A program made the position numbers and the translations under genes. The notes under the pieces are model-generated. The model was not told the DNA's origin and made no database searches. It saw only the letters and a program-made list of their open reading frames with translations. From Salinivirgaceae bacterium (GTDB lineage: Bacteria; Bacteroidota; Bacteroidia; Bacteroidales; SZUA-534), in assembly GCA_030620515.1 (NCBI GenBank), contig JAUXEM010000016.1, forward strand, positions 1-35,238: a stretch of 35,238 nt of DNA. The letters run 5' to 3'. The stretch's first letter is position 1, and every line of letters starts with the position of its first letter. Below, in pieces: positions 12,442-28,472 of this stretch.

Positions 12442-13326
12442 ATGGGGAATAAAGAAAAAGGCAAACAATCTAGGCGAAAATTTCTACAGAATATTGGCGT
12501 TGCTGGTGTTGGTGCTATTTCAGCTCCTGCAATACTATTCACAGCATGTAGTAGCAGTTCCGATAAAAAGACTAAGGTTCTTACACCCGATAACAAATTA
12601 ATTGAAATTGATTCTGAAAATGGCTTAGCTATTGATACCACTGACAAATCTTATTTGAACAAAATAGGTCGTGAAGGTATTCCAGGCAAAAAGTTTGTTA
12701 TGGTTATTGATTTGGGTAAATGCCGTAATGAACGAAAATGCATGAAAGCTTGTCAATCTGAGCATCAATTAAAGCCTGAACAACACCATCTGAATGTGTT
12801 AGAAATGGAGAACCCCAGTAGCGGACAAACCTATTTTATGCCTAAATTATGCCAACATTGCGATAACCCACCGTGCGTAACAGTTTGCCCAGTAGATGCT
12901 ACATTTAAACGCCAAGATGGAATTGTATTGGTTGACAATGAGCGTTGCATTGGTTGTCGCTTTTGCATAGCTGCATGCCCCTACTCAGCTCGTACTTTTA
13001 ATTGGACCGAACCACGCGATTCCGAAGAATATAAAGATATAACCTACAACATGGAACTTAATGTTCCTCAGAAAAAAGGAACCGTAACCAAATGTGCATT
13101 TAGTGCCGATAGAATTAGAGAAGGAAAACTACCTTATTGCAATTCGGCTTGCCCAAATGGTGTTTATTATTTTGGCGATGCTAATGAAGACTTAGTTACT
13201 AATGGCACCACTAAAGAGACGGTTCGTTTAAGCAAATTACTAAAACAAAATTCTGCTTATACTTTAATGCCTGAACTGGGAACACAACCAAGTGTATATT
13301 ATTTACCTGCAAGAGAAAATAGCTAA
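12442..13326 (+). CDS. TAT-exported four-cluster ferredoxin subunit (NrfC/HybA/PsrB-like)
   Basis: This 294-aa periplasmic electron-transfer subunit starts with a twin-arginine signal (SRRKFLQNIG). It is followed by a hydrophobic stretch and an LFTAC lipobox-like site, so it may be lipid-anchored. Sixteen cysteines form four [4Fe-4S] motifs: CRNERKCMKAC, CQHCDNPPCVTVCP, CIGCRFCIAACP, and a split set CAF...CNSACP. The family (DmsB/NrfC/PsrB/HybA) passes electrons between an NrfD-type quinone-interacting membrane subunit and a periplasmic redox partner. The next gene encodes exactly such a membrane subunit, starting 10 nt later. It heads the nap operon, so it probably feeds quinol electrons to NapAB through the downstream cytochrome c. 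That route is inferred from order. Confidence 0.88.
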   Translation: MGNKEKGKQSRRKFLQNIGVAGVGAISAPAILFTACSSSSDKKTKVLTPDNKLIEIDSENGLAIDTTDKSYLNKIGREGIPGKKFVMVIDLGKCRNERKCMKACQSEHQLKPEQHHLNVLEMENPSSGQTYFMPKLCQHCDNPPCVTVCPVDATFKRQDGIVLVDNERCIGCRFCIAACPYSARTFNWTEPRDSEEYKDITYNMELNVPQKKGTVTKCAFSADRIREGKLPYCNSACPNGVYYFGDANEDLVTNGTTKETVRLSKLLKQNSAYTLMPELGTQPSVYYLPARENS

Positions 13327-13336
13327 AAGTACTTTT

Positions 13337-14650
13337 ATGGAAAATATTAACGAAAAATTTGCAACCATCGAAAAAGATTTATTAGCCCCCGTTAAATGGG
13401 GTAAAAAATCAATAATATGGATGGGTTTTCTAATGGTTACTCTAGTAGTTTGTATGTTTTTCTACTACCAACAAATTAGAAATGGTCTTGGTGTAACTGG
13501 ACTTAACGACTTTGTTTCATGGGGAATATACATATCGAATTTTGTATTTTTTGTAGCAGCAAGTTTAATAGGAATGCTAATAAGCTCAGTATTAGGCTTA
13601 GCTGGTTCTAAATGGATAATGCCTATTTCACGCATAGCAGAAATTATAGCTGTTTCGTTTGCCATGGTAGCCGGTCTAATTATAATTTCCGATATGGGTC
13701 GCCCAGACAGACTGCATCATGTTTTTTTACATGGACGTATTCAGTCTCCAATTATTTGGGATATAGCAATCGTTTTAACCTACGTTGCAGTTAGTGTACT
13801 TTTACTATATGTTCCTTTAATTCCTGATATTGCATTACTAAGTAAGAAGCAAAATGGATTACCACGAATACAAAAATGGATGTACAAAATACTTTCTTTA
13901 GGATGGGCAAATCACCCAAATCAGTATAAACTAATTAAAAAGTATTTTAAACTATTAGCCGTACTTATTATTCCAATAGCACTGGCAATTCACACGGTTA
14001 CTTCTTGGCTTTTTGCAATGACATTACGTGCTGGTTGGGATTCACCAATTTTCGGACCTTATTTTGTGTCAGGCGCATTTGTAGCCGGTTGTGCAGCAGT
14101 AACAATAGGTATGTATTTCTTTCGCACTAGCTATAATCTAAAATCATACATTACCGATTATCATTTCGATAAAATGGGAAAGCTATTGGTTTTAGTTGCA
14201 CTGGTATATGTTTACTTCAATATTAACGAAATAATTGTTCCTGCATACAAATTAAAAGGTGGCGAAGCAGAGCATTTAAAAAGCATGCTTTTTGGTCACG
14301 ATGCTCTTATGTTTTGGCTTGTACAGATTGGTGGGTTGGTTTTACCTTTCATTTTATTACTATTTAAGAAAATGAGAAAACCTTTACCATCTTTAATCAT
14401 CTCAAGTGTAATTCTATTGGGCGCATGGTTTAAACGCTACTTAATTGTGGTACCCGTTCAGCAGCACCCTTATTATCCAATACAAAATGTGCCCGACAGC
14501 TTTATGCATTACACACCAACAATTGCCGAAATAGCAATAACGGTAGCATCTTTTGTTTTGTTTTTAATTATAGCAACGGTTCTTTCAAAAATATTCCCAA
14601 TAATACCAATTTGGGAACTTAAAGAGGAAGTTAAAGAACAAATCCAATAA
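13337..14650 (+). CDS. NrfD/HybB-like quinone-interacting membrane subunit
   Basis: This protein of about 437 aa has ten predicted membrane helices, beginning with SIIWMGFLMVTLVVC and ending with a helix before the charged tail KEEVKEQIQ. Ten helices fit the longer NrfD-superfamily members (HybB, ActC, QrcD) better than eight-helix PsrC. These oxidise or reduce quinones and pass electrons to the partner ferredoxin. The in-frame ATG at 13292 overlaps the previous gene by 35 nt. The ATG at 13337 (MENINEKF) is preferred because the earlier residues only read through the preceding gene's end. It is tightly coupled, with 2 nt to the cytochrome gene. Confidence 0.88.
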   Translation: MENINEKFATIEKDLLAPVKWGKKSIIWMGFLMVTLVVCMFFYYQQIRNGLGVTGLNDFVSWGIYISNFVFFVAASLIGMLISSVLGLAGSKWIMPISRIAEIIAVSFAMVAGLIIISDMGRPDRLHHVFLHGRIQSPIIWDIAIVLTYVAVSVLLLYVPLIPDIALLSKKQNGLPRIQKWMYKILSLGWANHPNQYKLIKKYFKLLAVLIIPIALAIHTVTSWLFAMTLRAGWDSPIFGPYFVSGAFVAGCAAVTIGMYFFRTSYNLKSYITDYHFDKMGKLLVLVALVYVYFNINEIIVPAYKLKGGEAEHLKSMLFGHDALMFWLVQIGGLVLPFILLLFKKMRKPLPSLIISSVILLGAWFKRYLIVVPVQQHPYYPIQNVPDSFMHYTPTIAEIAITVASFVLFLIIATVLSKIFPIIPIWELKEEVKEQIQ

Positions 14651-14652
14651 TC

Positions 14653-15519
14653 ATGAATAAAAAATTTTATATATTATTTACGCTGGTCTGCTTAAGCTTT
14701 TCACTAATAGCACAGGAATCATGGGAGGTTATAGCAGAGGAAAACGATAATTTAAGTATTATAATGTTCGACGAAGAATTGGAATTGTCTGGACAAATAA
14801 TTTATGACAACTCCTGCAAATCGTGCCACGGGAATCCTGAAAAAGCAGACTTCTCAAAAATGCTGCCTGAGCCAGGTGATATTGCATCGGAATCGTTCCA
14901 AAACCAGACAGATGGTTCCTTACACTACAAAATAAGAATAGGAAGAGGTGCAATGCCTAAGTTCGAAGATGCATTAGATAGTGAGGAGGTATGGAATTTA
15001 GTAGCGTACATTAGGAGTTTCAATAAAAACTACATACAGAAAAAACCAAATTTGGAAGGTATTGTAATTCCAAAATTTAGCCTTGCATTAAGTTTTGACG
15101 AGAATATTGACAAGCTTGTTGTAAAAACAATTGGTGATGACAATAATCCAATGAGTGAAGTTGAGCTAAAAGCATATATTAAAGGTTCATTTGGAAACTA
15201 TTTATTAGGTAAAACCTTGACCAACGAAATGGGCATAGGTTATTTTAATGTTGATGCAAAAATGCCTGGCGATGCCGAAGGTAAACTAGAAGTAATTGTT
15301 AAAGCAAGAAAAGGATATGGTTCTGCAAAAACAATGCAAAAAATGATAATGGTGCAACCATCTACATTTGAAAGTGCTATTAAGGGACGTCATTTATGGA
15401 GTACGGCAAAACAAGCACCTATATGGTTAAAAGTCACATTTTTCTTTACTATTATAAGCATATGGCTAATGATACTGTACGTTGTTTTTGGACTTAAAAA
15501 ATTAAAAAAATACAGCTAA
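14653..15519 (+). CDS. Membrane-anchored monoheme cytochrome c with beta-sandwich-like domain
   Basis: This 288-aa protein has a Sec signal peptide (about residues 1-20, ending near SLIAQE). A class I cytochrome c domain follows, with heme site C55-K-S-C58-H59 and probable axial Met101 in GAMPKF. Residues ~125-235 look like an all-beta, Ig-like region (repeated short hydrophobic/Gly pattern with [12 protein letters not shown]). A C-terminal helix at about 258-282 anchors it, with a basic cytoplasmic tail. It lies between the NrfD-like subunit and napA, so it may carry electrons from the quinol-oxidising module to NapAB. The beta-domain's role is unknown. No standard nap locus that I know contains this exact protein. 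Confidence 0.82.
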
Positions 15520-15530
15520 ATCGCAATACT

Positions 15531-18320
15531 ATGAGTTTAAATCGAAGAGATTTTATAAAAAGATCAGCTGCCATTGCTGCCATATCTGCAGCTGGAATTA
15601 CCATACCTAAAAAATTAACAGCCTCACTCCCATCGTCTGAAGGGAATTGGAAATGGGATAAAGCAGTATGCCGATTCTGTGGAACGGGCTGTGGAATTAT
15701 GGTAGCCACAAAAAATGATAGAATTGTAGCTGTAAAGGGCGACCCATTAGCTCCCGTTAACCGTGGTTTGAATTGTATTAAAGGGTATTTTAATGCTAAA
15801 ATTATGTATGGCGAGGATCGTTTAAAAAAACCATTACTACGTGTAGATGCGAATGGCAACTTTAGTAAACAAGGAAAATTTAAACCTGTTAGCTGGAAAC
15901 GTGCCTTCGATGAAATGGAGCTTCAAATTAAAAAAACATTAAAGGAACTTGGTCCTACTGGCTTAGGAATATTCAGTTCTGGTCAACATACTATAATGGA
16001 AGGTTATGCGGTTTCAAAACTTATGAAAGCTGGTTTCCGATCACATAACATCGACCCTAATGCAAGGCATTGTATGGCATCGGCTGTGGTAGGTTTTATT
16101 CAAACATTTGGAATAGACGAACCAGCTGGCAATTATGATGATATTGAATTAACGGATACCATTATTTCGTGGGGAGCCAACATGGCTGAGATGCATCCCA
16201 TTTTATGGTCACGTGCAACTGAAAATAAACTCTCTAACAAAGAACGTGTAAAGGTGGTTAATATGTCCACTTACACTAATAGAACTTCTGACTTAGCCGA
16301 TTTAGAAATTATTTTTAAACCAAATACCGATTTGGCAATTTGGAATTATATTGCGCATGAAATTGTGTACAATCATAGCGAAGCAATTGATTGGGATTTC
16401 GTAAATAAATACACTGACTTTGCCACCGGCGTGGTTGATATAGGGTATGGCATGCGTACACCCGACCATCCTAAATTCTCTGAAAAAGAGAAAGAAACCG
16501 TAAAGCACGAAGTGGCTAAAACTTTAAGTGAAGACGAAGGTACTGCCTTAAGTTATTTAGGATACAAAGCTGGCGATACCATGGAAATGAAAAATCGCAA
16601 GTCAGCAGTTAAGCATTGGAAAATATCTTACGATGATTTTAAAAAAGCACTTAAAGCATACGATTTAGATTTTGTGGCAAAAGTATCGAAAGGTGACCCA
16701 GAGGAAAGTATTGAAGATTTTAAAAAGAAACTAAAGCAACTTGCCGATTTATATATTGAGCAAGGACGAAAAGTAGTTTCCTATTGGACTATGGGTTTTA
16801 ATCAACATACACGAGGATCATGGGCAAATGAGCAAGCTTATATGGTTCATTTGCTTTTAGGCAAGCAATCTAAACCAGGAAGTGGCGCTTTTAGCCTAAC
16901 TGGGCAACCATCAGCTTGCGGTACAGCTCGCGAAGTAGGTACTTTCTCACACAGACTACCTGCCGATTTAGTTGTGAAAAATCCGAAACACCGCGAAATA
17001 TCTGAAAAAATATGGAAAGTGCCAGCCGGAACAATCAATCCAAAACCAGGTTCGCATCTAATGAAAATCCATCGCGACATTGAAGATGGTAAAATAAAAT
17101 TCGCCTGGATAAATGTGTGTAATCCATACCAAAACTCGGCAAATGCAAACCATTGGTTAAAGGCTGCACGCCAAATGGATAATTTCATAGTTTGTAGTGA
17201 TGGTTATCCTGGTATATCAGCAAAAGTATCAGATTTAATTCTGCCATCGGCAATGATTTTTGAAAAATGGGGTGCCTATGGAAATGCAGAAAGAAGAACA
17301 CAGCATTGGAAACAGCAAGTTACACCTGTAGGTGATGCAATGCCCGATACTTGGCAATTTGTTGAACTTGCTAAACGTTTTAAATTACGTGATGTTTGGG
17401 GGGCACAACCAATTCCAGGTTTGGAAGGTGGACTACCCGATGTATTAAGCCAAGCACAAGAAATGGGTTATAACCCAAATGATACTTTATACGATGTGCT
17501 TTTTGCAAATAAAGAAGCTAAATCATTTGCATGGCCCGACCCAGTTGGGCAAGATACTTTAAACACCGAAGCTGCCAGCGACAAACGAAAAGTTTTGGGT
17601 AGCGACGATAAACCATTTGAAGGATATGGATTCTTTATTCAGAAATATATTTGGGAAGAGTACCGAAAATTTGGTTTAGGAAATGGTCACGATCTAGCCG
17701 ATTTTGACACTTACCATAGTGTGAGAGGACTTAAATGGCCAATTGTAAATGGCAAAGAAACACTTTGGCGTTTTAATGCAAAGTACGACCCTTATGTTAA
17801 AAAAGCGGGTTCTAATGATTTTGCATTCTACGGTAAAGCATTAAATAAAATAGGGCAAGGTGACTTGAAAAACATTAACCCAAGTCTTGGTAAAGCTGAC
17901 TTTACCAATAAAGCAAAAATATTTTTCCGCCCATATATGGAACCACCTGAGTCGCCAAACAAGGAGTATCCGTTGTGGATGTGCACTGGTCGTGTACTTG
18001 AACATTGGCATAGTGGCACAATGACCATGCGTGTGCCTGAGTTATACCGTGCCGTTCCCGAGGCTCTTTGTTATATGAATCCTAAAGATGCTGCAGATTA
18101 TGGCTTTATTGAGGGCGACTTAATTTGGGTAGAATCGCGAAGAGGAAAAGTAAAATGCCATGTTGAAACTCGTGGTAGAAATCGTCCTCCAAAGGGCTTA
18201 ATATATGTGCCTTGGTTCGACGAAAAAGTATTTATAAATAAAGTTTGTTTAGATGCCACTTGCCCAATGAGTAAAGAAACTGATTTTAAAAAATGTGCAG
18301 TGAAAATTTTTAAAGCTTAA
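15531..18320 (+). CDS. napA: Periplasmic nitrate reductase catalytic subunit NapA
   Basis: This 929-aa molybdo-bis-MGD enzyme reduces nitrate to nitrite in the periplasm. It has a TAT signal ([11 protein letters not shown]). The [4Fe-4S] ligands are C47, C50, C54 and C82 (CX2CX3CX27C), and C181 in [13 protein letters not shown] is the molybdenum ligand. Blocks such as [44 protein letters not shown] and [15 protein letters not shown] are characteristic of NapA and distinguish it from formate dehydrogenase and NasA. It is about 100 residues longer than E. coli NapA. The extra residues, including a Lys/Glu-rich segment around 315-385, recall the ~925-aa epsilonproteobacterial form. It starts 11 nt after the cytochrome gene. 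Confidence 0.96.
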
Positions 18321-18330
18321 CAGTAAATAA

Positions 18331-18474
18331 TCCTCGGGGAAAGCCTCAAAAAAACAAAAGAGGCAGGCCCACGAGACATTAAAATTCAAAAAATCAAATT
18401 TCAAATATCAACAAACAAACGAGGAAAGCCTCGAGAAACCTGCCCGCTGTAAAACTTTGGCAGGCGAGTTATAG
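18331..18474. repeat. Dispersed palindromic repeat, copy 1 (napA-napG gap)
   Basis: The 182-bp gap between napA and napG is almost filled by this element. It has a CCTCGGGG/GCCTC head (18332-18347) and a block at 18362-18394 matching 25994-26026 at about 29 of 33 positions. A CGAGG-AAAG-CCTCG hairpin follows at about 18420-18432. CCTGCC/GGCAGG arms lie at about 18439-18465. It breaks the otherwise tight operon spacing. Confidence 0.75.
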
Positions 18475-18502
18475 CTAAATTGATTAAATAATTTTAATAT
18501 AT

Positions 18503-19306
18503 ATGACATCGAGAAGGGAAGCATTAAAAAAACTATTAAACTCAGCTATGGTAGTTGGTGGTGGTGGATTAGTTTGGGGAAATATAGCAAAAGCTTCTCA
18601 AAGTAGTCCAGTTACACTTCGTCCTCCAGGTGCTATTGAAGAAAATAAATTCATTCAGGCTTGTATTAAGTGTGGGAAATGTGTTGAAGCTTGCCCTTAC
18701 GATACTCTAAAACTAGCTACTATAGGAGAAACTAGTGCACTTGGCACGCCCTATTTTGAGCCTAGAAAAGTACCTTGTTACTTATGCACAAATTATCCTT
18801 GTACCGAGGCTTGCCCATCTGGAGCATTAGATTTAAAGGAACTGCAAAAGGAGTCTGAAGACAAGTCTGAAGATAAATCTGAGGAAATAAATATTGAGAA
18901 TGCAAGAATGGGTCTTGCTGTAATACACAAAGAATCGTGCATTGCATTTGGTGGTGTTCAGTGCGATGCTTGTTATCGCGCTTGTCCGCTTATGGGTAAA
19001 GCCATTGTGCTTGATAAAGAAGTAAATGAGTTTACTCAAAAACATGCTAATTTAAAGCCTGTTGTTAACAGCGATTACTGTACTGGCTGTGGAATATGCG
19101 AACAGGTTTGTGTGGTTGAAAAAGCAGCAATTTTCATACTACCAGTTGAACTGGCAACCGGCAATGTTGGAGACCATTACATACGTAGCTGGAAAGAAAA
19201 TGATGAGTCTAAATTAAAGAATCAGAAATTAATTGAAGAAGGTAAGGATACTGACGTTGAGTCGGCTATTGATTATCTAAATTCGGACGAAGAATTATTT
19301 GAATAA
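18503..19306 (+). CDS. napG: NapG, TAT-exported ferredoxin of nitrate reductase
   Basis: This 267-aa protein starts with a twin-arginine signal (SRREALKKLL). It has four [4Fe-4S] motifs: CIKCGKCVEACP, CYLCTNYPCTEACP, CIAFGGVQCDACYRACP and CTGCGICEQVC, the arrangement of NapG/MauM. With NapH it forms a quinol dehydrogenase that passes electrons to NapAB. An acidic insertion with two EDKS repeats lies at about residues 114-130, between clusters two and three. It lies downstream of a dispersed repeat and overlaps napH by one base. NapG rather than NapF is indicated by the TAT signal and cluster pattern. Confidence 0.93.
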   Translation: MTSRREALKKLLNSAMVVGGGGLVWGNIAKASQSSPVTLRPPGAIEENKFIQACIKCGKCVEACPYDTLKLATIGETSALGTPYFEPRKVPCYLCTNYPCTEACPSGALDLKELQKESEDKSEDKSEEINIENARMGLAVIHKESCIAFGGVQCDACYRACPLMGKAIVLDKEVNEFTQKHANLKPVVNSDYCTGCGICEQVCVVEKAAIFILPVELATGNVGDHYIRSWKENDESKLKNQKLIEEGKDTDVESAIDYLNSDEELFE

Positions 19307-20139
19307 TGAGTATTATAAGAAAATATCGCTTTTTAATAGCACGTCGTTTTGTCCAAATAGGCTTACTGCTTTTATTTGTGGGAGGCAACTACTTTAACTG
19401 GACTATTTTAAAAGGCAATTACAGTTCAGGTTTGTTTCTGGATACTATTCCATTAACCGACCCCTATGCTGTACTTCAAATATTATTTAGTGGTTTTATG
19501 GCTGGAACCGATTTATTAATAGGAGCTGCTATTATTTTACTAATATATGGATTCCTATTTGGCAGAGTATTCTGTTCATGGATTTGTCCCATAAATATTA
19601 TTGCTGATGCTGCTATTTTTACATCGAACAAATTGGCAAGTAAACCAAAAATGAAATTATCGCGCCGAACTAGATACGGAGCAATGATTTTAGGACTGAT
19701 TCTTTCAACGTTGCTTGGAATATCAGCATTTGAAGCAATTAATCCTATTGCAATTTTACACCGAGAAATAATTTTTGGCTTAGGTACAGGTTGGACAATT
19801 ATTGTTGCCTTATTCATATTCGATGTAACAATTACCAAACACGGGTGGTGTGGGCATCTTTGTCCCTTAGGAGCATTTTATTCATTAATTAGCCGCTTTT
19901 CTTTATTAAAAATTAAACACAATAACGATAACTGCACAAACTGCATGAAATGTTTTGCTGTTTGTCACGAACCCCAAGTTTTAAGTATTATTGGCAAACA
20001 AAATGGTTTAATTAAATCGGGCGAATGTACTAATTGTGGAAGATGCGTTGAAGTATGCGAAGACAATGCCCTTAATTTCAACTTGGGTAAAAACAATAAA
20101 ATAAATATCCTCGGAGCAAGCTCACGAGGTTTCAAATAA
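19306..20139 (+). CDS. napH: NapH, membrane quinol dehydrogenase subunit
   Basis: This 277-aa polytopic protein has four membrane helices. The CSWICP motif (NapH CX3CP type) follows helix 2 and CGHLCP follows helix 4. A C-terminal cytoplasmic part carries two [4Fe-4S] motifs (CTNCMKCFAVC and CTNCGRCVEVC). NapH oxidises quinol and passes electrons to NapG. It starts in a one-base TAATG overlap with napG. The last ten or so codons, NILGASSRGFK, and the stop codon lie inside a dispersed palindromic repeat, so the native C-terminus has probably been replaced or extended. Confidence 0.93.
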   Translation: MSIIRKYRFLIARRFVQIGLLLLFVGGNYFNWTILKGNYSSGLFLDTIPLTDPYAVLQILFSGFMAGTDLLIGAAIILLIYGFLFGRVFCSWICPINIIADAAIFTSNKLASKPKMKLSRRTRYGAMILGLILSTLLGISAFEAINPIAILHREIIFGLGTGWTIIVALFIFDVTITKHGWCGHLCPLGAFYSLISRFSLLKIKHNNDNCTNCMKCFAVCHEPQVLSIIGKQNGLIKSGECTNCGRCVEVCEDNALNFNLGKNNKINILGASSRGFK

Positions 20140-20236
20140 AAAAGAGATAATTATTAGCAGCAACCTGCCCGACTAGTTATTCAGGCGAGGCTGTAAGGAA
20201 CCTGCACCTTGCAACTATGGCAGGCGGGTAAAACCC
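20109..20236. repeat. Dispersed palindromic repeat, copy 2 (napH 3' end)
   Basis: It starts inside napH with CCTCGGAGCAAGCTCACGAGG (a near-perfect hairpin around 20109-20129). It continues past the stop with AACCTGCCCGACTAG and a second AACCTGC...GGCAGGCGGG pair at about 20200-20228. The head matches the in-gene copy at 25988 closely. It fills most of the 144-bp napH-napB gap. Confidence 0.7.
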
Positions 20237-20283
20237 ACAATAGTGGAATTAAATGATATTTATAATTCAATAATAAGATAGAT

Positions 20284-20853
20284 ATGAGAGCAATAGCAAT
20301 AATTTTAATGATGGCGTTTTTTGTAGCTTGTAATCAGAATAGCAATAACGATAGTATAGATGAAAACAAACTTGGGTTTATTGATGCAAGTGTAAAATCA
20401 GAAGAGACAAACTTAAAAGAGAAAGCTAAATTTTCAGATACCCAACCTGGAAAGTCGGAAGCAATTAATAGAGCTTTCGAAAATGCTCCTCCTATGATAC
20501 CACACACAACTGAGGGCTTTTTCCCTATTAAAATAGATAATAACATTTGTTTAAGTTGCCACCTACCTGATAAAGTTGAAAAGACGGGAGCTGTAGCCAT
20601 TCCAAAAATGCATTTTACTAACCTGCGCCCAAAAATGAAACTAATAGACGGCAAATATGAGTTTAGCGCCAGCGACACATTGCATAGAGAAAAAATTGAA
20701 ACCCTAAATTCTGCATATTTTAACTGCAATCAATGCCATGCCCCACAAGCAAATGTGACAGTAAATATTAAGAATCTTTTTACACCAGAATTTAGAGAAG
20801 AATTTGGGATAAAGGAATCTACATTAGATAAACAATTTGAAGACGGATTATAG
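20284..20853 (+). CDS. napB: NapB, diheme cytochrome c subunit
   Basis: This 189-aa electron-transfer subunit partners NapA in the periplasm. It has a lipoprotein-type signal ending MMAFFVAC, suggesting a lipid anchor at C16. The two heme sites are C89-L-S-C92-H93 and C148-N-Q-C151-H152. Candidate second axial ligands are H74 (MIPHTT) and H110 (PKMHFTN), both in NapB-typical positions. About 50 residues of charged linker separate the signal from the domain. Ordinary NapB is soluble and shorter, so a lipidated form is a small oddity. It lies 144 bp after napH because of the repeat. Confidence 0.92.
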   Translation: MRAIAIILMMAFFVACNQNSNNDSIDENKLGFIDASVKSEETNLKEKAKFSDTQPGKSEAINRAFENAPPMIPHTTEGFFPIKIDNNICLSCHLPDKVEKTGAVAIPKMHFTNLRPKMKLIDGKYEFSASDTLHREKIETLNSAYFNCNQCHAPQANVTVNIKNLFTPEFREEFGIKESTLDKQFEDGL

Positions 20854-20874
20854 TTTAGCAAAAAAACATTGACA

Positions 20875-21219
20875 ATGAATATAAGTAGTGTAATTATTAA
20901 AACAAGATCAACATACTTTAATAAAATAGTTGAAATTCTTACTAATTCGAATTTGTGTGAAGTACATGCCTCTGAAAACCAAAAAATAGTAATTACCCTT
21001 GAAGGAAAAAACACTGAGGAAGAGATAAATAAACTTAAACAAATAGAAAAAATGGAGGGTGTAGTTTCCGCTGAAATGGTTTATGCATATAGCGAAGATG
21101 AACTAGAAAAAGAGCGAAACAAGATTGAGCAAGCCACCCAAGTACCCGAATGGTTAAACAACGAAAATATTAAAGCAGAACAAATTAAGTACAAAGGCGA
21201 TTTAAGATCTAAAACATAA
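20875..21219 (+). CDS. napD: NapD, TAT-signal-binding chaperone
   Basis: This 114-aa ferredoxin-fold protein binds the NapA twin-arginine signal and prevents early export. The opening ISSVIIKTRSTYFNKIVEIL matches the NapD 'I-S-S-x-V-V' start. The mid-part IEKMEGVVSAEMVYAYSED corresponds to the family's L-x-x-x-x-G-V-x-s-x-x-x-v-Y block. A longer charged tail follows. An in-frame TTG at 20869 precedes the ATG at 20875, and the ATG is preferred. It is the last nap gene. No napF, napL or napC is present. Confidence 0.85.
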   Translation: MNISSVIIKTRSTYFNKIVEILTNSNLCEVHASENQKIVITLEGKNTEEEINKLKQIEKMEGVVSAEMVYAYSEDELEKERNKIEQATQVPEWLNNENIKAEQIKYKGDLRSKT

Positions 21220-21319: not shown

Positions 21320-21354
21320 AATATTAATTTTTAGTTTTGCTAAAAATTAATATT
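21320..21354. promoter_or_regulatory. Perfect 15-bp inverted repeat with -7 element, abutting the PEP mutase start
   Basis: AATATTAATTTTTAG (21320-21334) is the exact reverse complement of the 15 bases at 21340-21354, with loop TTTTG. The right arm ends directly before the ATG at 21355. A perfect TAnnTTTG element (TAGTTTTG, 21332-21339) sits at its centre, so a bound repressor would cover the promoter. Alternatively, a longer transcript would fold it into a hairpin that hides the start. Confidence 0.65.
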
Positions 21355-22656
21355 ATGGCAAAGAAAGTCTATATTGGCATGAGTGCTGATTTAATTCATC
21401 CAGGACACTTAAATATTATTAAAGAAGGTGCAAAGCTTGGTGAAGTTACTGTTGGAGTGCTAACTGACGAAGCAATTGCAAGCTACAAACGCCTGCCTTA
21501 CCTAAGCTACGAACAACGTAAACTAATTGTTGAAAGCATAAAAGGAGTAGTAAAAGTAATTCCTCAAAATACCTTAGACTACGTTCCAAACTTACGTGCT
21601 GAGAAACCTGATTTTGTTGTTCATGGCGACGATTGGAAAGAAGGTATACAGAAAAAGACAAGACAAGACGTTATTGATGCCATATCAGATTGGGGTGGTA
21701 AAGTAATTGATATTCCTTATACACCAGGCATTTCGTCAACAAAGCTTAACGAAAACCTTAAAGCAATTGGTACTACTCCAGAAATTAGAATGAAACGCTT
21801 ACGTCGCTTAATTCAAGCTAAACCTATTGTACGCATTTTAGAATCGCATAGTGGCTTAACTGGATTAATTGCCGAAAACATTAAAGTAAATATAAATGGT
21901 GCCGAGCATGAATTTGACGGAATGTGGTCAAGCAGTTTAACCGATTCAACATCGAAAGGCAAGCCAGATATTGAAGCGGTTGACATTACAACACGCATGC
22001 ATGGTTTAAACGACACTTTAGAGTGTACTACAAAGCCTATAATTTATGATGGTGATACAGGTGGTAAAATGGAACATTTTGTATTCACCGTAAGAACGCT
22101 TGAACGCCACGGCATTTCAGCTGTAATTATTGAAGATAAAACAGGATTAAAAAAGAATTCTCTTTTTGGTACAGCGGTTCCACAAACACAAGATACAATT
22201 GAAGATTTTAGTGGAAAAATAAGAGCTGGGAAAAACGCTCAAGTAACCGACGATTTCATGATTATTGCTCGTGTTGAAAGCTTGATTCTTGGAAAAACCG
22301 TTGAAGAAGCCTTAGAAAGAGCTCATGCTTATGTTAAAGCAGGTGCCGATGGAGTAATGATACACAGTAAGGAAAAAACTGGATTGGACATAAAGGAATT
22401 TTGTGAAACATTTCGCAAAACCAATAAATCGACTCCAATTGTTGTTGTACCATCTACGTTTAATCACATAACTGAAAATGAATTTGCAACATGGGGTATT
22501 AACGTAGTAATATATGCAAACCATATGCTAAGAGCCTCTTATCCAGCAATGGTCGATGTCGCAAAATCAATTCTTTCCAATGGCAGATCGTCTAATGCAA
22601 ATGATAAATGTATGCCAATTAAAGAAATTTTAGAATTAATACCAGGAACCAAGTAA
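21355..22656 (+). CDS. aepX: PEP mutase with N-terminal cytidylyltransferase domain
   Basis: This 433-aa two-domain enzyme starts phosphonate synthesis by turning PEP into phosphonopyruvate. Residues 1-135 form a HIGH-type nucleotidyltransferase (HPGH at 15-18, ISSTK at 126-130). Residues ~145-433 form the isocitrate-lyase-superfamily mutase, with WSSSLTDS (191-198), DGDTGG (232-237) and the mutase signature [10 protein letters not shown] (260-269). The EDK-x5-NS signature separates true mutases from phosphonopyruvate hydrolases and lyases. Bacteroides aepX proteins share this layout. The first domain may activate a finished phosphonate as a CMP ester (inference). A TTG 18 nt upstream is rejected as start. 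The stop overlaps the next start (TAATG). Confidence 0.93.
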
Positions 22657-23783
22657 TGATAAATCCAAAGAACTTTTACAACTGGTTAACAAAAAGTAAT
22701 GTTGACTTTTTTAGTGGGATACCAGATTCTTTGCTAAAAAATATTTGTGCATATATTACGGATAATGCGCCAAAAACAAATCATATAATTGCTGCAAACG
22801 AAGGAAATGCAATTGCTCTTGCAGCAGGTTACCACATGGCAACCAATAAAATCCCTTTGGTTTACATGCAAAACTCAGGAATTGGTAATGCGGTAAACCC
22901 TTTACTATCGTTAGCCGATAAAAAGGTTTATAGTATTCCTGTGCTATTAATGATTGGTTGGCGTGGTGAACCTGGTGTAAAAGACGAGCCTCAACATGTT
23001 AAGCAAGGTGAGGTTACTTTAGATTTACTTGAGGCAATGCAAATTCCATATTTGGTACTCAGTAAAGATGAAAACGAAGCAGAGGCTCAAATTCAACAAG
23101 CTATAAGCAAAATATCGGAAACAAATGAACCTTTTGCCTTAGTGGTTAAAAAAGGAACTTTTGATAACTATTCTATTAAAGAAAGTATTAAAACAGATTA
23201 CGAACTTTGTCGCGAAGATGCTATTAAGCAAGTTGTTAACAACTTGAAAGGCAACGAAATAATTGTTTCAACAACTGGTAAAACATCACGCGAGTTATTT
23301 GAGTGCAGAGCTGCATTAAAACAGCCACATCACTCCGATTTTCTTACGGTAGGCTCAATGGGGCATTCGAGCCAAATAGCATTGGGAATAGCAATAGCCA
23401 AACCAAATAAAACAGTAATTTGCATTGATGGCGATGGAGCCTTACTCATGCACATGGGAGCTTTAGCCATTGCTGGCGAAATAAGTCCAAGTAATTATAT
23501 TCATATTGTAATTAATAATGGGGCGCACGAATCGGTTGGCGGACAACCAACTATTGCTTTTAATGTAGATATCCCTGCTCTTGCAAAAGCAAATAAATAT
23601 AAGTCAGCATTATCGGTATCGTCGGCAGATGACTTGAACATGGCACTTAAAAATATCAGTAAAGAAAACTGTCCTATTCTTATTGAAGTAAAAGTACGTG
23701 TAGGTTCGCGCGATGATTTGGGCAGACCAACAATATCTCCAGTAGAAAACAAGAAAAGTTTCATGAAAAACTTGCAATCATGA
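22656..23783 (+). CDS. aepY: Phosphonopyruvate decarboxylase
   Basis: This 375-aa ThDP-dependent enzyme decarboxylates phosphonopyruvate to phosphonoacetaldehyde, pulling the unfavourable mutase reaction forward. The N-terminal part has the ThDP pyrimidine-domain block NEGNAIALAAGYHMAT with the catalytic Glu. The C-terminal part has the ThDP-Mg motif beginning GDGALLMHMGALA and ending in NN (INNGAHESVGGQP). The length is normal for the family, which is shorter than pyruvate decarboxylases. It overlaps aepX by one base and the next gene by four (ATGA), so all three are translationally coupled. Confidence 0.94.
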   Translation: MINPKNFYNWLTKSNVDFFSGIPDSLLKNICAYITDNAPKTNHIIAANEGNAIALAAGYHMATNKIPLVYMQNSGIGNAVNPLLSLADKKVYSIPVLLMIGWRGEPGVKDEPQHVKQGEVTLDLLEAMQIPYLVLSKDENEAEAQIQQAISKISETNEPFALVVKKGTFDNYSIKESIKTDYELCREDAIKQVVNNLKGNEIIVSTTGKTSRELFECRAALKQPHHSDFLTVGSMGHSSQIALGIAIAKPNKTVICIDGDGALLMHMGALAIAGEISPSNYIHIVINNGAHESVGGQPTIAFNVDIPALAKANKYKSALSVSSADDLNMALKNISKENCPILIEVKVRVGSRDDLGRPTISPVENKKSFMKNLQS

Positions 23784-24919
23784 TTGAGCAAAAGGTTTTT
23801 TATAAAAACCAACTTGACCAATTAAAATTATCCCTTGAAAATATTGAATCGCAAAATATATTTGTGGTACGAGCTAATAAATCTTACCCCGCTTCGGGGG
23901 CAGAGTCTTTTATTGATGAATTACTCGAAAATAATTATACTTCTTTTTACGACTTCGACCCCAACCCTCAATTAGAGGATTTAAAGAAAGGTATTGCATT
24001 ATTCAAAAAGGGTGAATACAAACTAATTATTGCCATTGGTGGCGGTAGTGTTCTTGATATGGCAAAGCTAATTAGCGTATTTGCTCACCAAAATAATAAA
24101 TACGAAGACATAGTTATTGGGAAAGCTGAAATAGAAAATGCAAAAACACCTTTAATTGCTATTCCTACTACAGCAGGAACAGGAGCTGAAGCAACCCAGT
24201 TTGCAGTATTATATATTGATAAGAACAAGTATTCGGTTGCTCACCCTTCCATATTACCTAATACTGTTTTTCTATCATCAGTATTTTCTCATTCAGCAAA
24301 TGCCTACCTTACAGCTTGTACAGGTCTTGATGCATTTTGCCAAGCAGTAGAATCGGTTTGGAGTGTTAATGCAAATGCGGAATCGGAAAAATATGCTTTG
24401 GAAGCTATTGAATTAATTTGGGGGCATCTGCGCCAAGCAGTTAAAGAGAATGATGTAATGGCAAAAGAAAAGATGCAAACAGCATCATTCTTGGCAGGTA
24501 AAGCAATTAACATTACCAAAACAACAGCTCCGCATGCTTTATCGTATGCTTTCACTAGCTATTATAATATACCACACGGGCATGCAGTAGCTTTAAGTTT
24601 ACCCTTCTTTTTAAATTACAATTACAATTTAACCGAAGTGGACTGTACCGATGCCAAAGGTGTAGAAAAAGTTAAAGAGAGAATAGATAAAATTCTTAAT
24701 ATTTTCAACATTGATATTACAAAAGCACAACAAGCTTTAGTAGTCTTTTTGAATGATATAGACATTAGTATTAATATTTCAACATTAATATCAGAGTTTA
24801 ATCCAAACATTATAATTGACAATGTAAACACACAAAGGTTAAACAATAACCCACGAAAAGTGTCTAAACAAACAATTCAAAACTTACTAAGTACCTTAAA
24901 TATACAAGTCACGGTGTGA
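23780..24919 (+). CDS. Iron-type alcohol dehydrogenase, probable phosphonoacetaldehyde reductase
   Basis: This 379-aa group III alcohol dehydrogenase has the nucleotide-binding GGGSVLDMAK (88-96 region) and PTTAGTGAEAT. Metal ligands at the usual places are D184, H252 and H266. The fourth ligand, normally His in D-x3-H, is Gln188 (GLDAFCQ). Coupled by ATGA to phosphonopyruvate decarboxylase, it most likely reduces phosphonoacetaldehyde to 2-hydroxyethylphosphonate, like PhpC/FomC-type enzymes. No aminotransferase (aepZ) is nearby, so aminoethylphosphonate is not the obvious product. Function rests on context plus family resemblance. Confidence 0.85.
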   Translation: MIEQKVFYKNQLDQLKLSLENIESQNIFVVRANKSYPASGAESFIDELLENNYTSFYDFDPNPQLEDLKKGIALFKKGEYKLIIAIGGGSVLDMAKLISVFAHQNNKYEDIVIGKAEIENAKTPLIAIPTTAGTGAEATQFAVLYIDKNKYSVAHPSILPNTVFLSSVFSHSANAYLTACTGLDAFCQAVESVWSVNANAESEKYALEAIELIWGHLRQAVKENDVMAKEKMQTASFLAGKAINITKTTAPHALSYAFTSYYNIPHGHAVALSLPFFLNYNYNLTEVDCTDAKGVEKVKERIDKILNIFNIDITKAQQALVVFLNDIDISINISTLISEFNPNIIIDNVNTQRLNNNPRKVSKQTIQNLLSTLNIQVTV

Positions 24920-25070: not shown

Positions 25071-28000
25071 ATGAATGTTTTCGAATTAGTACTTTCCCCC
25101 TTTATATATATAATTAAACAACTATTTTTATATAGCTACCAATTAACTGGAAACTATGGCATTTCCATTATTCTATTGAGTTTTGCAATATCGTTACTTT
25201 TGCTTCCTATATTTATTTTAATTGAAAAGGCTAAAAAGAAAGACGATGTAGCTAAGCTAAAAATGAAGCCTTTAATAGACGAAATTAAAAACTGTTACAA
25301 GGGTCAAGAAAGGTACTATTACTTAAAAACATTAAACCGACAATTTAATTACAGCCCAGTTCGTGCTTTAATTCCAATATTAAGTCTGCTTTTGCAGATA
25401 CCATTTTTTATAGCGGCATATCAGTATTTAGAACACTTTGAACCCTTAATAGGCGTAAGCTTTGCATTTATTGCCGACCTAAGTCAACCTGATGCTCTTT
25501 TTGGCAATATTAATTTTTTACCCATTGCCATGACTTTTGTGAATTTACTAACAGCCTATTTTTACACAAAAAATGGTAATACTGCCGAACGAAAACAAAT
25601 GCTTGTTGTAGCTGGTGTTTTTCTAATTCTATTATTTAACCTCCCAGCAGGTTTGGTACTTTATTGGACAATGAATAATATGTTTAGTTTTTTCAGATTA
25701 TTCATTACGAATCGTGAAGCATTTAAAAAGGTTGAGAATAAAAACCCATTTATTAGAGAAGGATATATTGAATTTAAAGCACGATTAATCCCCATACTAC
25801 CAAAGCTACTAAACACCTTTTTTTTAACAACCGCAATAGTAATTTTATTGCAAGTAATTTCTGCCCTAGGCAATGACTTTAATAACATTTTTCAGCAATT
25901 AATTTCAGGCTTGGGAATAAGTATTGGCGTAACAGTTTCTATTGCTTTACTTGTTTTAATGCATAAAATAAATGGCACAGTAAATTACCTAGGGGCAAGC
26001 CCACAAGGCATTAAAATTCAAAAAAACAAACCTGCCCGAATAAGTCAGGCAGGTTTCAAATTTCAAAAGAAAAACGAGGCAAGCCTCGGGGAAATATACA
26101 CAAAGAGATTAAAGGATAAAAATGCAAAAGACTTCATACTTACAATTTTGCCTACTTTTAAACCAATGTTGTTTGTTTTTTTAACAATTACAATTGGGTC
26201 GCAAGTAAACTGGGCATTGCAGCATAGTTTTAATAGTATAATTCAACGTGTATTTGGTTCCATTATTGGCAGTATAGTTGCTACTAGTATTTTAGCTACT
26301 ATTATTCTTTTTTATCAAGGACACATAACACTCAGCATTAAGCAACTTGGCATACAAATTTGGGCAATTAGAAAAACAAAATTTAGAATAGACCCAACAG
26401 TATATTTCTCTATCCTTTTTTTATCGATATACTTTTACTTGGCAGGCTTATTCTATTTTACTGGTATAAATACGGCTTTAAATAGCATAGCATTAGTATT
26501 TGTTTTATTGATTCAATTATTGGGATTAAAAAGTTTTATCAGTTCTAAAAAACATACAAGCAAAGCAGTATTTATTACTTCTGCGTTAGCCTTAATTGCA
26601 ATTGCACTATTTCAATTAATAGGTTCTTTTATTTTACTTTTTGACATTGGCATTGTTTTTAACCTCTCATTATCAAATATAATTTTAGCTGGTTTTATCT
26701 TTACATTAATAACCATAATCTACTACTTAAAAAGCTCAAAAACAGAATTACTCACGCCAAATACATCAATGACAATAGTATATTCATTAGCTCTTTTTTA
26801 TGTGTTAAGTTTAGTGTTTTTCTGGAGCCCACTTATAGTATATTCCTCGTTCCCTGAAACATTCTCGTTCCCTGCTATTCATATTTTGGCTAAAAACTTT
26901 TTACTATTTGCCATTCTTTTTGCTAGTTCTTATATTTTATATGTTCTAATATCCAAAAAATTAAAATTCTTATTTACATCAATATTAGTTGCTCTTAGTT
27001 TTGTATTCTTTTTAAATAGCTTTATAATTCCTGTAAATGTGGGCACTTTACAGCTAGGTAAATATATTGAAGCATCAGCTTTAGCAATGCACCCTTTTAT
27101 TTACTTGGCAGAAGGACTTTTTTTAATTACCATTTTTCTTTTAACAAAATGGTTACTGCTTGGTAAATACCATAAACATGTAACTATTGCACTGGTTTCT
27201 TTAACTCTTATTCTTACTAGTCAAAGCCTTATTTCTGCAATTAGTGGGGGTGATTTTTTTAGCAAAAGTGAGGATAGTTTAAAACTACCTAATACCATAT
27301 CCTTTTCTAAAGACAAACCAAATGTAATATTCATTATTCCAGATACTTTTATGGGAATGCACATGAAATACATTTTAGAAGAATCGCCAGAATTAAAAAC
27401 AGAGCTTGACGGTTTTGTTTGGTATCCTAATACACTATCGGTGTCAACAAATACAGCACCTTCAATTAGTTCAATGTATGTGGGTCACGATTTTAATCTT
27501 GACATATTAAATCAAGATAATAAGCATACCATGACCGAAAAGATTACCGAGGCTTCTGAATTGTTCTGCAACAAAGTTAAAGAGCAAGGATATTCCTTAA
27601 CAAGTACTAAAATGGTTTATTCAAAAATCGATAAAAACACTTATGATTATTATCTACCAAATTGGCATTCCGACTGGAACAAATGGAATAAATCATTAAA
27701 CATTGGCGGCGCAAAAGAACTAGACTTTGCTATACTTTGGAAAAATGCAGTTTTCTATGGTTCACCACTTTTCATAAAATCTAGAATTTACGACAATGGT
27801 GACTGGATTAGGATGGAAAATGAAACCAACAAGAATTCTACGCTTACAAAAGAATTAAATTTTACTAGACTACTACCCTTAATATCTGACACAAATAATG
27901 ATAAAGGTAACTTCATTTATATTCACACAAAAGCTACTCATGGGCCATGGCATGTAGTTAATAATAATGGTGAGCTAACCATGAATGTTGGTTCTTATGA

Positions 28001-28472
28001 GAATCAGAAATGGTTTATTAATGAATTTGCAAAATGGATAAAGTGGATGAAGAAAAACAATGTTTACGATAATACAAAGATTATAATGGTTGCTGACCAT
28101 AGTCACAACTTACCAGACAAAGAGTTAAACGAATATGGAGGAATATTTAAATGGGGAAAAGAAGGACAAGAAAAACTATCGGCTCGTGATTTCTGGAGAG
28201 TGAATTCACTTTTAATGGTGAAAGATTTTAATTCAAATGGTAATATTAAAGAAGATTGGCGATTCATGAGTAATGCAGATGCCCCAGCTATTGCCTTTAA
28301 CGAAAATGACCCTACAAAAATTGAACCGCCAGAATCAAGAACTCTTCCGGTTTTTTATGTGGGTAATTTGCCAAGATCGACCAAAAAGAAATATTTGCCA
28401 ATTTACATGCAATACGAAGTAAAAGATAGTGTTTATGATCCTAAGAATTGGACTCTTGTTAAAACAGAATAA
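25071..28472 (+). CDS. YidC/Oxa1-like domain fused to polytopic region and alkaline-phosphatase-superfamily transferase
   Basis: This 1133-aa membrane protein begins with a recognisable YidC/Oxa1 core (about residues 1-215): YGISIILLSFAISLLLLP, a charged hairpin, LLLQIPFFIAAYQYL and FNLPAGLVLYWTMNNMFSF. S41 stands where insertases have the groove Arg. Residues ~245-740 hold roughly a dozen more helices. Residues 306-342 are encoded by an inserted palindromic repeat. The C-terminal periplasmic domain (~750-1133) resembles LTA synthase and phosphoethanolamine transferases: metal Asp758 (FIIPDTF), candidate nucleophile Thr795 (or Thr793) in STNTAPSISSM, His957 (THGPWH), and Asp1009-His1010 (ADHSH). 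It follows three phosphonate genes, so it may move a phosphonate or phosphoglycerol-like group onto a surface lipid or glycan. Function not established. Confidence 0.85.
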   Translation: MNVFELVLSPFIYIIKQLFLYSYQLTGNYGISIILLSFAISLLLLPIFILIEKAKKKDDVAKLKMKPLIDEIKNCYKGQERYYYLKTLNRQFNYSPVRALIPILSLLLQIPFFIAAYQYLEHFEPLIGVSFAFIADLSQPDALFGNINFLPIAMTFVNLLTAYFYTKNGNTAERKQMLVVAGVFLILLFNLPAGLVLYWTMNNMFSFFRLFITNREAFKKVENKNPFIREGYIEFKARLIPILPKLLNTFFLTTAIVILLQVISALGNDFNNIFQQLISGLGISIGVTVSIALLVLMHKINGTVNYLGASPQGIKIQKNKPARISQAGFKFQKKNEASLGEIYTKRLKDKNAKDFILTILPTFKPMLFVFLTITIGSQVNWALQHSFNSIIQRVFGSIIGSIVATSILATIILFYQGHITLSIKQLGIQIWAIRKTKFRIDPTVYFSILFLSIYFYLAGLFYFTGINTALNSIALVFVLLIQLLGLKSFISSKKHTSKAVFITSALALIAIALFQLIGSFILLFDIGIVFNLSLSNIILAGFIFTLITIIYYLKSSKTELLTPNTSMTIVYSLALFYVLSLVFFWSPLIVYSSFPETFSFPAIHILAKNFLLFAILFASSYILYVLISKKLKFLFTSILVALSFVFFLNSFIIPVNVGTLQLGKYIEASALAMHPFIYLAEGLFLITIFLLTKWLLLGKYHKHVTIALVSLTLILTSQSLISAISGGDFFSKSEDSLKLPNTISFSKDKPNVIFIIPDTFMGMHMKYILEESPELKTELDGFVWYPNTLSVSTNTAPSISSMYVGHDFNLDILNQDNKHTMTEKITEASELFCNKVKEQGYSLTSTKMVYSKIDKNTYDYYLPNWHSDWNKWNKSLNIGGAKELDFAILWKNAVFYGSPLFIKSRIYDNGDWIRMENETNKNSTLTKELNFTRLLPLISDTNNDKGNFIYIHTKATHGPWHVVNNNGELTMNVGSYENQKWFINEFAKWIKWMKKNNVYDNTKIIMVADHSHNLPDKELNEYGGIFKWGKEGQEKLSARDFWRVNSLLMVKDFNSNGNIKEDWRFMSNADAPAIAFNENDPTKIEPPESRTLPVFYVGNLPRSTKKKYLPIYMQYEVKDSVYDPKNWTLVKTE
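25986..26095. repeat. Dispersed palindromic repeat, copy 3, inside a coding sequence
   Basis: It encodes residues 306-342 of the YidC fusion. It contains GGGGCAAGCCCAC with a block at 25994-26026 shared with copy 1. A perfect 9-bp pair follows, AAACCTGCC (26028-26036) with GGCAGGTTT (26048-26056), and then the hairpin CGAGGC-AA-GCCTCG (26075-26088). The insert is in frame with no stop and codes a basic hydrophilic loop between helices. Confidence 0.8.

Follow-up and report, generated by a model that had tools for sequence, protein, structure and literature searches.

The window analysed here is a 35,238-nucleotide stretch (positions 1-35,238, forward strand) of contig JAUXEM010000016.1 of a Salinivirgaceae bacterium (Bacteroidota; assembly GCA_030620515.1), in which one gene encodes a YidC/Oxa1-like membrane domain fused to a catalytic domain of the alkaline phosphatase (AP) superfamily. 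From its conserved residues, its relatives and its gene neighbourhoods, we conclude that this fusion protein is very probably an envelope headgroup transferase that is tied to phosphonates but not confined to them. The frame runs without interruption over 1133 amino acids (aa), and the gene and its parts are arranged as follows:

25071-28472, forward strand: YidC-like/AP-superfamily fusion protein (P0001), an intact open frame of 1133 aa.
25155-25715, forward strand: YidC/Oxa1-like core, residues 29-215; Pfam 60KD_IMP/YidC (PF02096), 84.8 bits against a cut-off of 35; NCBIfam yidC_oxa1_cterm (TIGR03592), 89.7 bits against a cut-off of 84.3; solved YidC chains match.
25191-25193, forward strand: Ser41, at the conserved basic groove position of YidC (R366 in E. 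coli) by alignment to E. coli-type chains.
25716-27245, forward strand: middle membrane region, residues 216-725, with ~13 more predicted helices and poor conservation.
25979-26114, forward strand: copy, inserted in frame, of a dispersed ~135-bp repeat; encodes residues ~303-348.
27288-28469, forward strand: AP-superfamily (sulfatase/LtaS/MCR-like) catalytic domain, residues 740-1133; Pfam Sulfatase (PF00884) on residues 750-1024, 37.5 bits against a cut-off of 25; matched in the PDB by profile.
27342-27344, forward strand: Asp758, putative metal ligand.
27453-27455, forward strand: Thr795, putative nucleophile.
27939-27941, forward strand: His957, putative phosphate-binding His.
28095-28100, forward strand: Asp1009-His1010, putative metal ligands.

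The first-pass annotation had read this frame as a YidC-like core, about a dozen further helices and a periplasmic transferase domain marked by the blocks FIIPDTF, STNTAPS, THGPWH and ADHSH, and each of these elements was borne out. Solved YidC structures align with residues 14-213, a hydropathy scan of the whole protein yields ~17 candidate membrane helices, and the four blocks contain D758, T795, H957 and D1009/H1010, which are unchanged in all 75 aligned fusion homologues within a domain whose mean identity to Spirochaetota homologues is 25.7%. An assembly chimera was excluded, as the same architecture recurs in independent genomes of the window's own family and across Spirochaetota. The metal ligands of Listeria LtaS are Glu263, phospho-Thr307, Asp481 and His482, and its His422 contacts the phosphate (PMC4192460). 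The catalytic residues of the fusion match these in order and spacing, with Asp in place of Glu at the first ligand, an assignment made from motif and spacing and not from structural superposition. Like LtaS, EptA and MCR, the fusion places membrane helices before a periplasmic AP-superfamily domain, with an acidic residue, a Thr nucleophile, a His and an Asp-His at matching places; it differs from them in its first metal ligand, in having a YidC-like core at the N terminus and a much larger number of helices, and in forming a divergent family of its own that is genetically tied to modules for activation with cytidine monophosphate (CMP). When a 46-member profile was compared with the PDB, sulfatases matched best, and phosphonate monoester hydrolases (2vqr, 2w8s and 4upk), LtaS (9e-6) and MCR-1 (0.007) also matched, all with modest E-values. 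In formylglycine sulfatases and phosphonate monoester hydrolases the nucleophile is a formylglycine made from Cys or Ser; the fusions have Thr at this position in all 75 cases and neither Cys nor Ser, which argues for transfer and not sulfate hydrolysis, and an assignment to either enzyme type was dropped. Together, the aligned sequences support a predicted Thr-nucleophile, metal-site transferase domain of the AP superfamily.

Conservation within the fusion is highest in the YidC-like part, with 41% mean identity to Spirochaetota homologues, and most members keep P46, Q109, P111, D141 and G194 of the YidC core. Where it departs from YidC/Oxa1/Alb3 proteins is the groove: the basic residue there has been called strictly conserved in all YidC homologues (PMC8920935) and is K or R in 18/18 canonical YidCs compared, whereas the 125 fusions having a residue in this column carry T (67), N (31) or S (27) and in no case a basic one. 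The fusions also lack the large periplasmic P1 domain and carry the C-terminal transferase, and in a quick tree, computed with a long-branch warning, a single branch splits their YidC-like domains from canonical YidCs (Shimodaira-Hasegawa-like approximate likelihood ratio test, SH-aLRT, 100), with the seven domains of the window's family forming one clade (SH-aLRT 99). The window's genome encodes a separate canonical YidC as well. The groove has thus changed in character, but loss of insertase activity does not follow, because E. coli YidC dispenses with R366 if position 517 is aromatic or hydrophilic (PMC8920935), and the fusions retain Tyr-Trp at the equivalent position (Y198, W199). Conservation combined with a lost groove charge suggests an active but altered role for the YidC-like part, and this role is the interesting question of the family. 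E. coli YidC and yeast Oxa1 are known to scramble lipids in vitro (PMC10491306).

In one relative (G005), the two tandem fusions (L029, 12121-15500) share a 188-bp block that is 98% identical, while the preceding 270 bp are 80% identical, which suggests gene conversion within the YidC-like part. Both copies have a run of N between the two blocks, and copies that seemed frameshifted in this genome were dismissed, the apparent frameshifts being such runs.

The fusion is a real and widespread family, and we found no paper describing it in the open-access full-text literature. In the window's own family it occurs in 4/20 genomes, and the 394 genomes from the rest of the phylum contained no fusion; the sole match at 1e-15 in the phylum set beyond the window's genome was a 620-aa frame with the YidC core alone. 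The fusion is common in spirochaetes, with several copies per genome. It was counted in ~139 of 196 Treponema genomes sampled (by hand, as 155 matches at 1e-12 minus 16 near 1e-13 to 1e-15 that were judged canonical YidC by score), the catalytic domain was present in 84 of 345 genomes of a Spirochaetota sample, and all 20 Spirochaetota loci that were read held at least one complete YidC-plus-sulfatase frame. Homologues in Treponema and other Spirochaetota measure 900-1000 aa and often stand several in tandem. A pattern scan of genome contigs returned two loci only, namely a Treponema fusion (L024) truncated by the contig end, which is a distant match, and a Verrucomicrobia YidC with Arg retained in the groove, which is canonical. 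A plasmid-borne family was considered and dropped, with 0 matches in plasmids.

Three genes precede the fusion gene in the window:

21337-22656, forward strand: PntC-PepM fusion, an N-terminal PF01467 cytidylyltransferase with a phosphoenolpyruvate (PEP) mutase; TIGR02320, 417.5 bits (cut-off 319.6); PF13714 and PF01467.
22656-23783, forward strand: phosphonopyruvate decarboxylase (Ppd); TIGR03297, 522 bits (cut-off 312.5).
23780-24919, forward strand: iron-containing alcohol dehydrogenase (PF00465/PF25137), a probable phosphonoacetaldehyde reductase yielding 2-hydroxyethylphosphonate (HEP).

As the first-pass annotation had supposed, this gene set fits synthesis of HEP, with the reductase role of the dehydrogenase made probable by the cluster in which it lies, and HEP is probably the headgroup here. 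The order pepM-pntC, ppd, dehydrogenase, PF04464-like gene and two fusions is kept in G001, G003 and G005. The closest described system is the Pnt phosphonyl-tailoring pathway (Rice et al. 2019, PMC6697681), which includes Tde1415 of T. denticola and whose PepM-PntC, Ppd and PntC-2-aminoethylphosphonate (AEP) transaminase genes directly adjoin fusion homologues; at 21337-23783 of the window, a PEP mutase with fused cytidylyltransferase and a Ppd likewise adjoin the fusion gene, and a dehydrogenase stands where the Pnt pathway has a transaminase. In that work the final transfer is ascribed to LicD-like enzymes, and the main text names neither the fusion nor its PF04464 partner (no 'YidC', no 'sulfatase'). 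The PF04464-like partner, absent from the first-pass annotation, was located outside the window on contig C153 together with a second fusion. It matches the family of the TagB/TagF/TarF CDP-glycerol phosphotransferases and presumably also uses a CDP/CMP-activated headgroup, but PF04464 scores are weak (29.6 and 45.1 bits), there is no NCBIfam match, and the protein has an N-terminal membrane motif of its own, LYIDP(G/A)(T/S). The window's genome contains another PEP mutase/Ppd pair in an O-antigen or capsule-like cluster (L140, contig C37, 7677-11320), where a TarF-like PF04464 transferase is present and the fusion is absent.

Treponema neighbourhoods, in which genes were labelled by phmmer comparison with proteins of the window and of Treponema at 1e-5 (1e-4 for the Spirochaetota loci), place the fusion beside the same kinds of genes. 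Among 40 fusion loci, a PF04464-like gene lies within 8 kb in 32 and some CMP-activation module within 8 kb likewise in 32; the loci hold 73 fusions and 38 PF04464-like genes, often one PF04464-like gene with two or three fusions, and up to four fusions per locus. The modules are of several types. One combines PntC-PepM and Ppd with a nucleotidyltransferase-class V aminotransferase fusion of 611 aa that matches the T. denticola PntC-AEP transaminase Tde1415 (6PD1/6PD2) with 904 bits, an enzyme that makes CMP-AEP (PMC6697681). In another, a class V aminotransferase stands beside a free-standing PF01467 protein, and a third consists of fusions between a nucleotidyltransferase and a class I/II aminotransferase, 656-686 aa long in 17 loci and ~609 aa in 6 (e.g., L108 11273-13285 and L117 2484-4313), which likely serve a further CMP-activated headgroup. 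By genome, the fusion is strongly associated with PEP mutase, occurring in 62/63 Treponema genomes that have the mutase and in 77/133 that do not (Fisher p = 8e-11, with relatedness ignored). In the sole PEP mutase genome without a fusion (G465), the mutase gene adjoins a PF04464-like gene broken by the contig end. In 34 PEP mutase loci, a fusion or PF04464-like gene was within 8 kb in 22, a low estimate, as loci whose linkage was already established had mostly been omitted from the sample and contigs are often short. The first-pass annotation had tied the fusion to phosphonates and suggested a neighbourhood survey for PEP mutase. The tie itself stands, through the conserved cluster in the window's family and the Treponema co-occurrence, but it was drawn too narrowly by the annotation's own yardstick of linkage to phosphonate genes: in Treponema the majority of homologues are not near PEP mutase, which is within 8 kb in only 9/40 fusion loci. 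Because most of them instead adjoin PF04464-like genes and other nucleotidyltransferase-aminotransferase modules, phosphonate is likely one of several headgroups handled by the family.

These observations can be joined in a scheme to which we give an even chance, in which the fusion is the periplasm-facing last enzyme of a surface decoration pathway. The window's enzymes would convert PEP through phosphonopyruvate and phosphonoacetaldehyde to HEP, and the upstream enzymes would activate it to CMP-HEP, the product formed in Fom1 by a PEP mutase-fused PF01467 domain (PMC6697681). The next step would fall to a cytosolic PF04464-family transferase, encoded here on C153, which would move the headgroup from CMP onto a lipid of the membrane or a glycan linked to one. 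Since members of the PF04464 family use CDP-glycerol as the source of the headgroups that they transfer, the partner would load HEP onto its lipid or glycolipid on the cytosolic side. LtaS and similar transferases of the AP superfamily obtain their headgroup from lipids outside the membrane, and a lipid loaded in the cytosol would therefore have to be carried across. We speculate that the YidC-like part and its helix-rich extension move the polar headgroup of the lipid across the membrane, in keeping with the lipid scrambling by YidC itself in vitro; headgroups that are zwitterionic or anionic would be well accommodated by a groove that is polar and neutral. In the AP domain, Thr795 would accept the headgroup, D758, D1009 and H1010 would hold a metal, and the headgroup would be passed to an envelope acceptor; one PF04464-like gene with several fusions would fit a single donor pool serving several acceptors. 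Whatever the route of the lipid, the transferase role is well supported. Surface attachment of phosphonates after CMP activation has been described as enigmatic (PMC6697681), and the fusion family, which probably carries out the last step in fixing phosphonates and similar groups to the bacterial surface, offers a concrete candidate in Treponema, other Spirochaetota and the window's lineage. A broader idea, tentative and on balance doubtful, is that the family represents a widespread flippase-transferase class, in which a YidC fold with a neutral groove flips lipid headgroups for a periplasmic transferase and supplies the missing final step for phosphonates and other CMP-activated headgroups in spirochaetes and some other bacteria. 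If the YidC-like part does move lipids, an insertase fold would have been recruited for lipid flipping.

Several points weigh against this scheme. The best NCBIfam match of the dehydrogenase, TIGR03405 (the phosphonate iron-containing alcohol dehydrogenase PsrA), reaches 173.7 bits, under the cut-off of 423.7. The PF04464-like gene and the second fusion of the window's genome lie outside the phosphonate cluster, on the 4098-base contig C153, through a true split or an assembly effect, and some phosphonate clusters of the window's family have no fusion. Conversely, 77/139 fusion-positive Treponema genomes lack PEP mutase, so phosphonate is not obligatory. Both AlphaFold models were of low confidence, with a predicted local distance difference test (pLDDT) of 34 for the catalytic domain alone and 51 for residues 1-300 modelled with three sequences. 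For canonical YidC, lipid scrambling is a side activity seen in vitro, and for the fusion it would be a conjectural one.

Under one alternative, the fusion would be an EptA/LtaS-type transferase with an ordinary phospholipid donor (phosphatidylethanolamine or phosphatidylglycerol), the YidC-like part being an anchor and the phosphonate genes merely sharing a surface-glycan locus. The profile matches to LtaS and MCR-1, the majority of loci without PEP mutase and the frequent glycosyltransferase and nucleotide-sugar enzyme neighbours (named from sequence starts only) all agree with such an enzyme. We nevertheless consider it unlikely: the fusion is present in nearly every PEP mutase genome, loci without the mutase usually hold another nucleotidyltransferase-aminotransferase module, and the strongest conservation in the protein would not be expected of a passive anchor. 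The dispensability of R366 in E. coli bears on a different alternative, since charge loss need not abolish insertion and the YidC-like part could still insert or chaperone a membrane protein, such as the helix-rich middle of the fusion itself or the PF04464 partner with its membrane anchor, next to an AP domain acting as transferase. Given the uniform absence of the basic residue that every canonical YidC compared retains, the separate canonical YidC of the window's genome and the apparent waste of pairing every transferase copy, of which a locus can have up to four, with an insertase, this seems to us quite improbable. That the AP domain is instead a hydrolase, a phosphonate monoester/diester hydrolase or sulfatase trimming or recycling surface headgroups, is what the best profile matches would indicate at face value; with a Thr nucleophile throughout where those enzymes use formylglycine, and a gene placed among synthesis genes and not uptake or C-P lyase genes, we regard it as very improbable.

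Directly upstream of the phosphonate genes, at 12442-21219, lies a periplasmic nitrate reductase-type cluster with a molybdopterin oxidoreductase, NrfD, NapG, NapH, NapB and NapD, and no functional tie between the two was seen.

The middle membrane region of the fusion varies far more than its ends, with 32.5% mean identity to own-family relatives and hardly any conservation against Spirochaetota homologues. In P0001 the dispersed repeat copy adds ~46 residues between two membrane helices. The repeat has 43 matches in the window's genome, including a second one within the window at 18359-18398, and 0/28 other copies examined in this genome sit inside an open reading frame of at least 100 aa. 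Residues ~303-348, encoded by this inserted copy and missing in the proteins of relatives, are not ancestral. The same region contains two-helix units with the motif SQ(L/V/I)NWA...FDD, as found by pattern scan. There is a single clear copy in P0001 (residues 366-416) and no match by pattern in three other relatives; the C153 paralogue (L034, 1-2139) and one G005 fusion (L029, 12467-14959) each have four, so that the copy number of the unit differs among paralogues.

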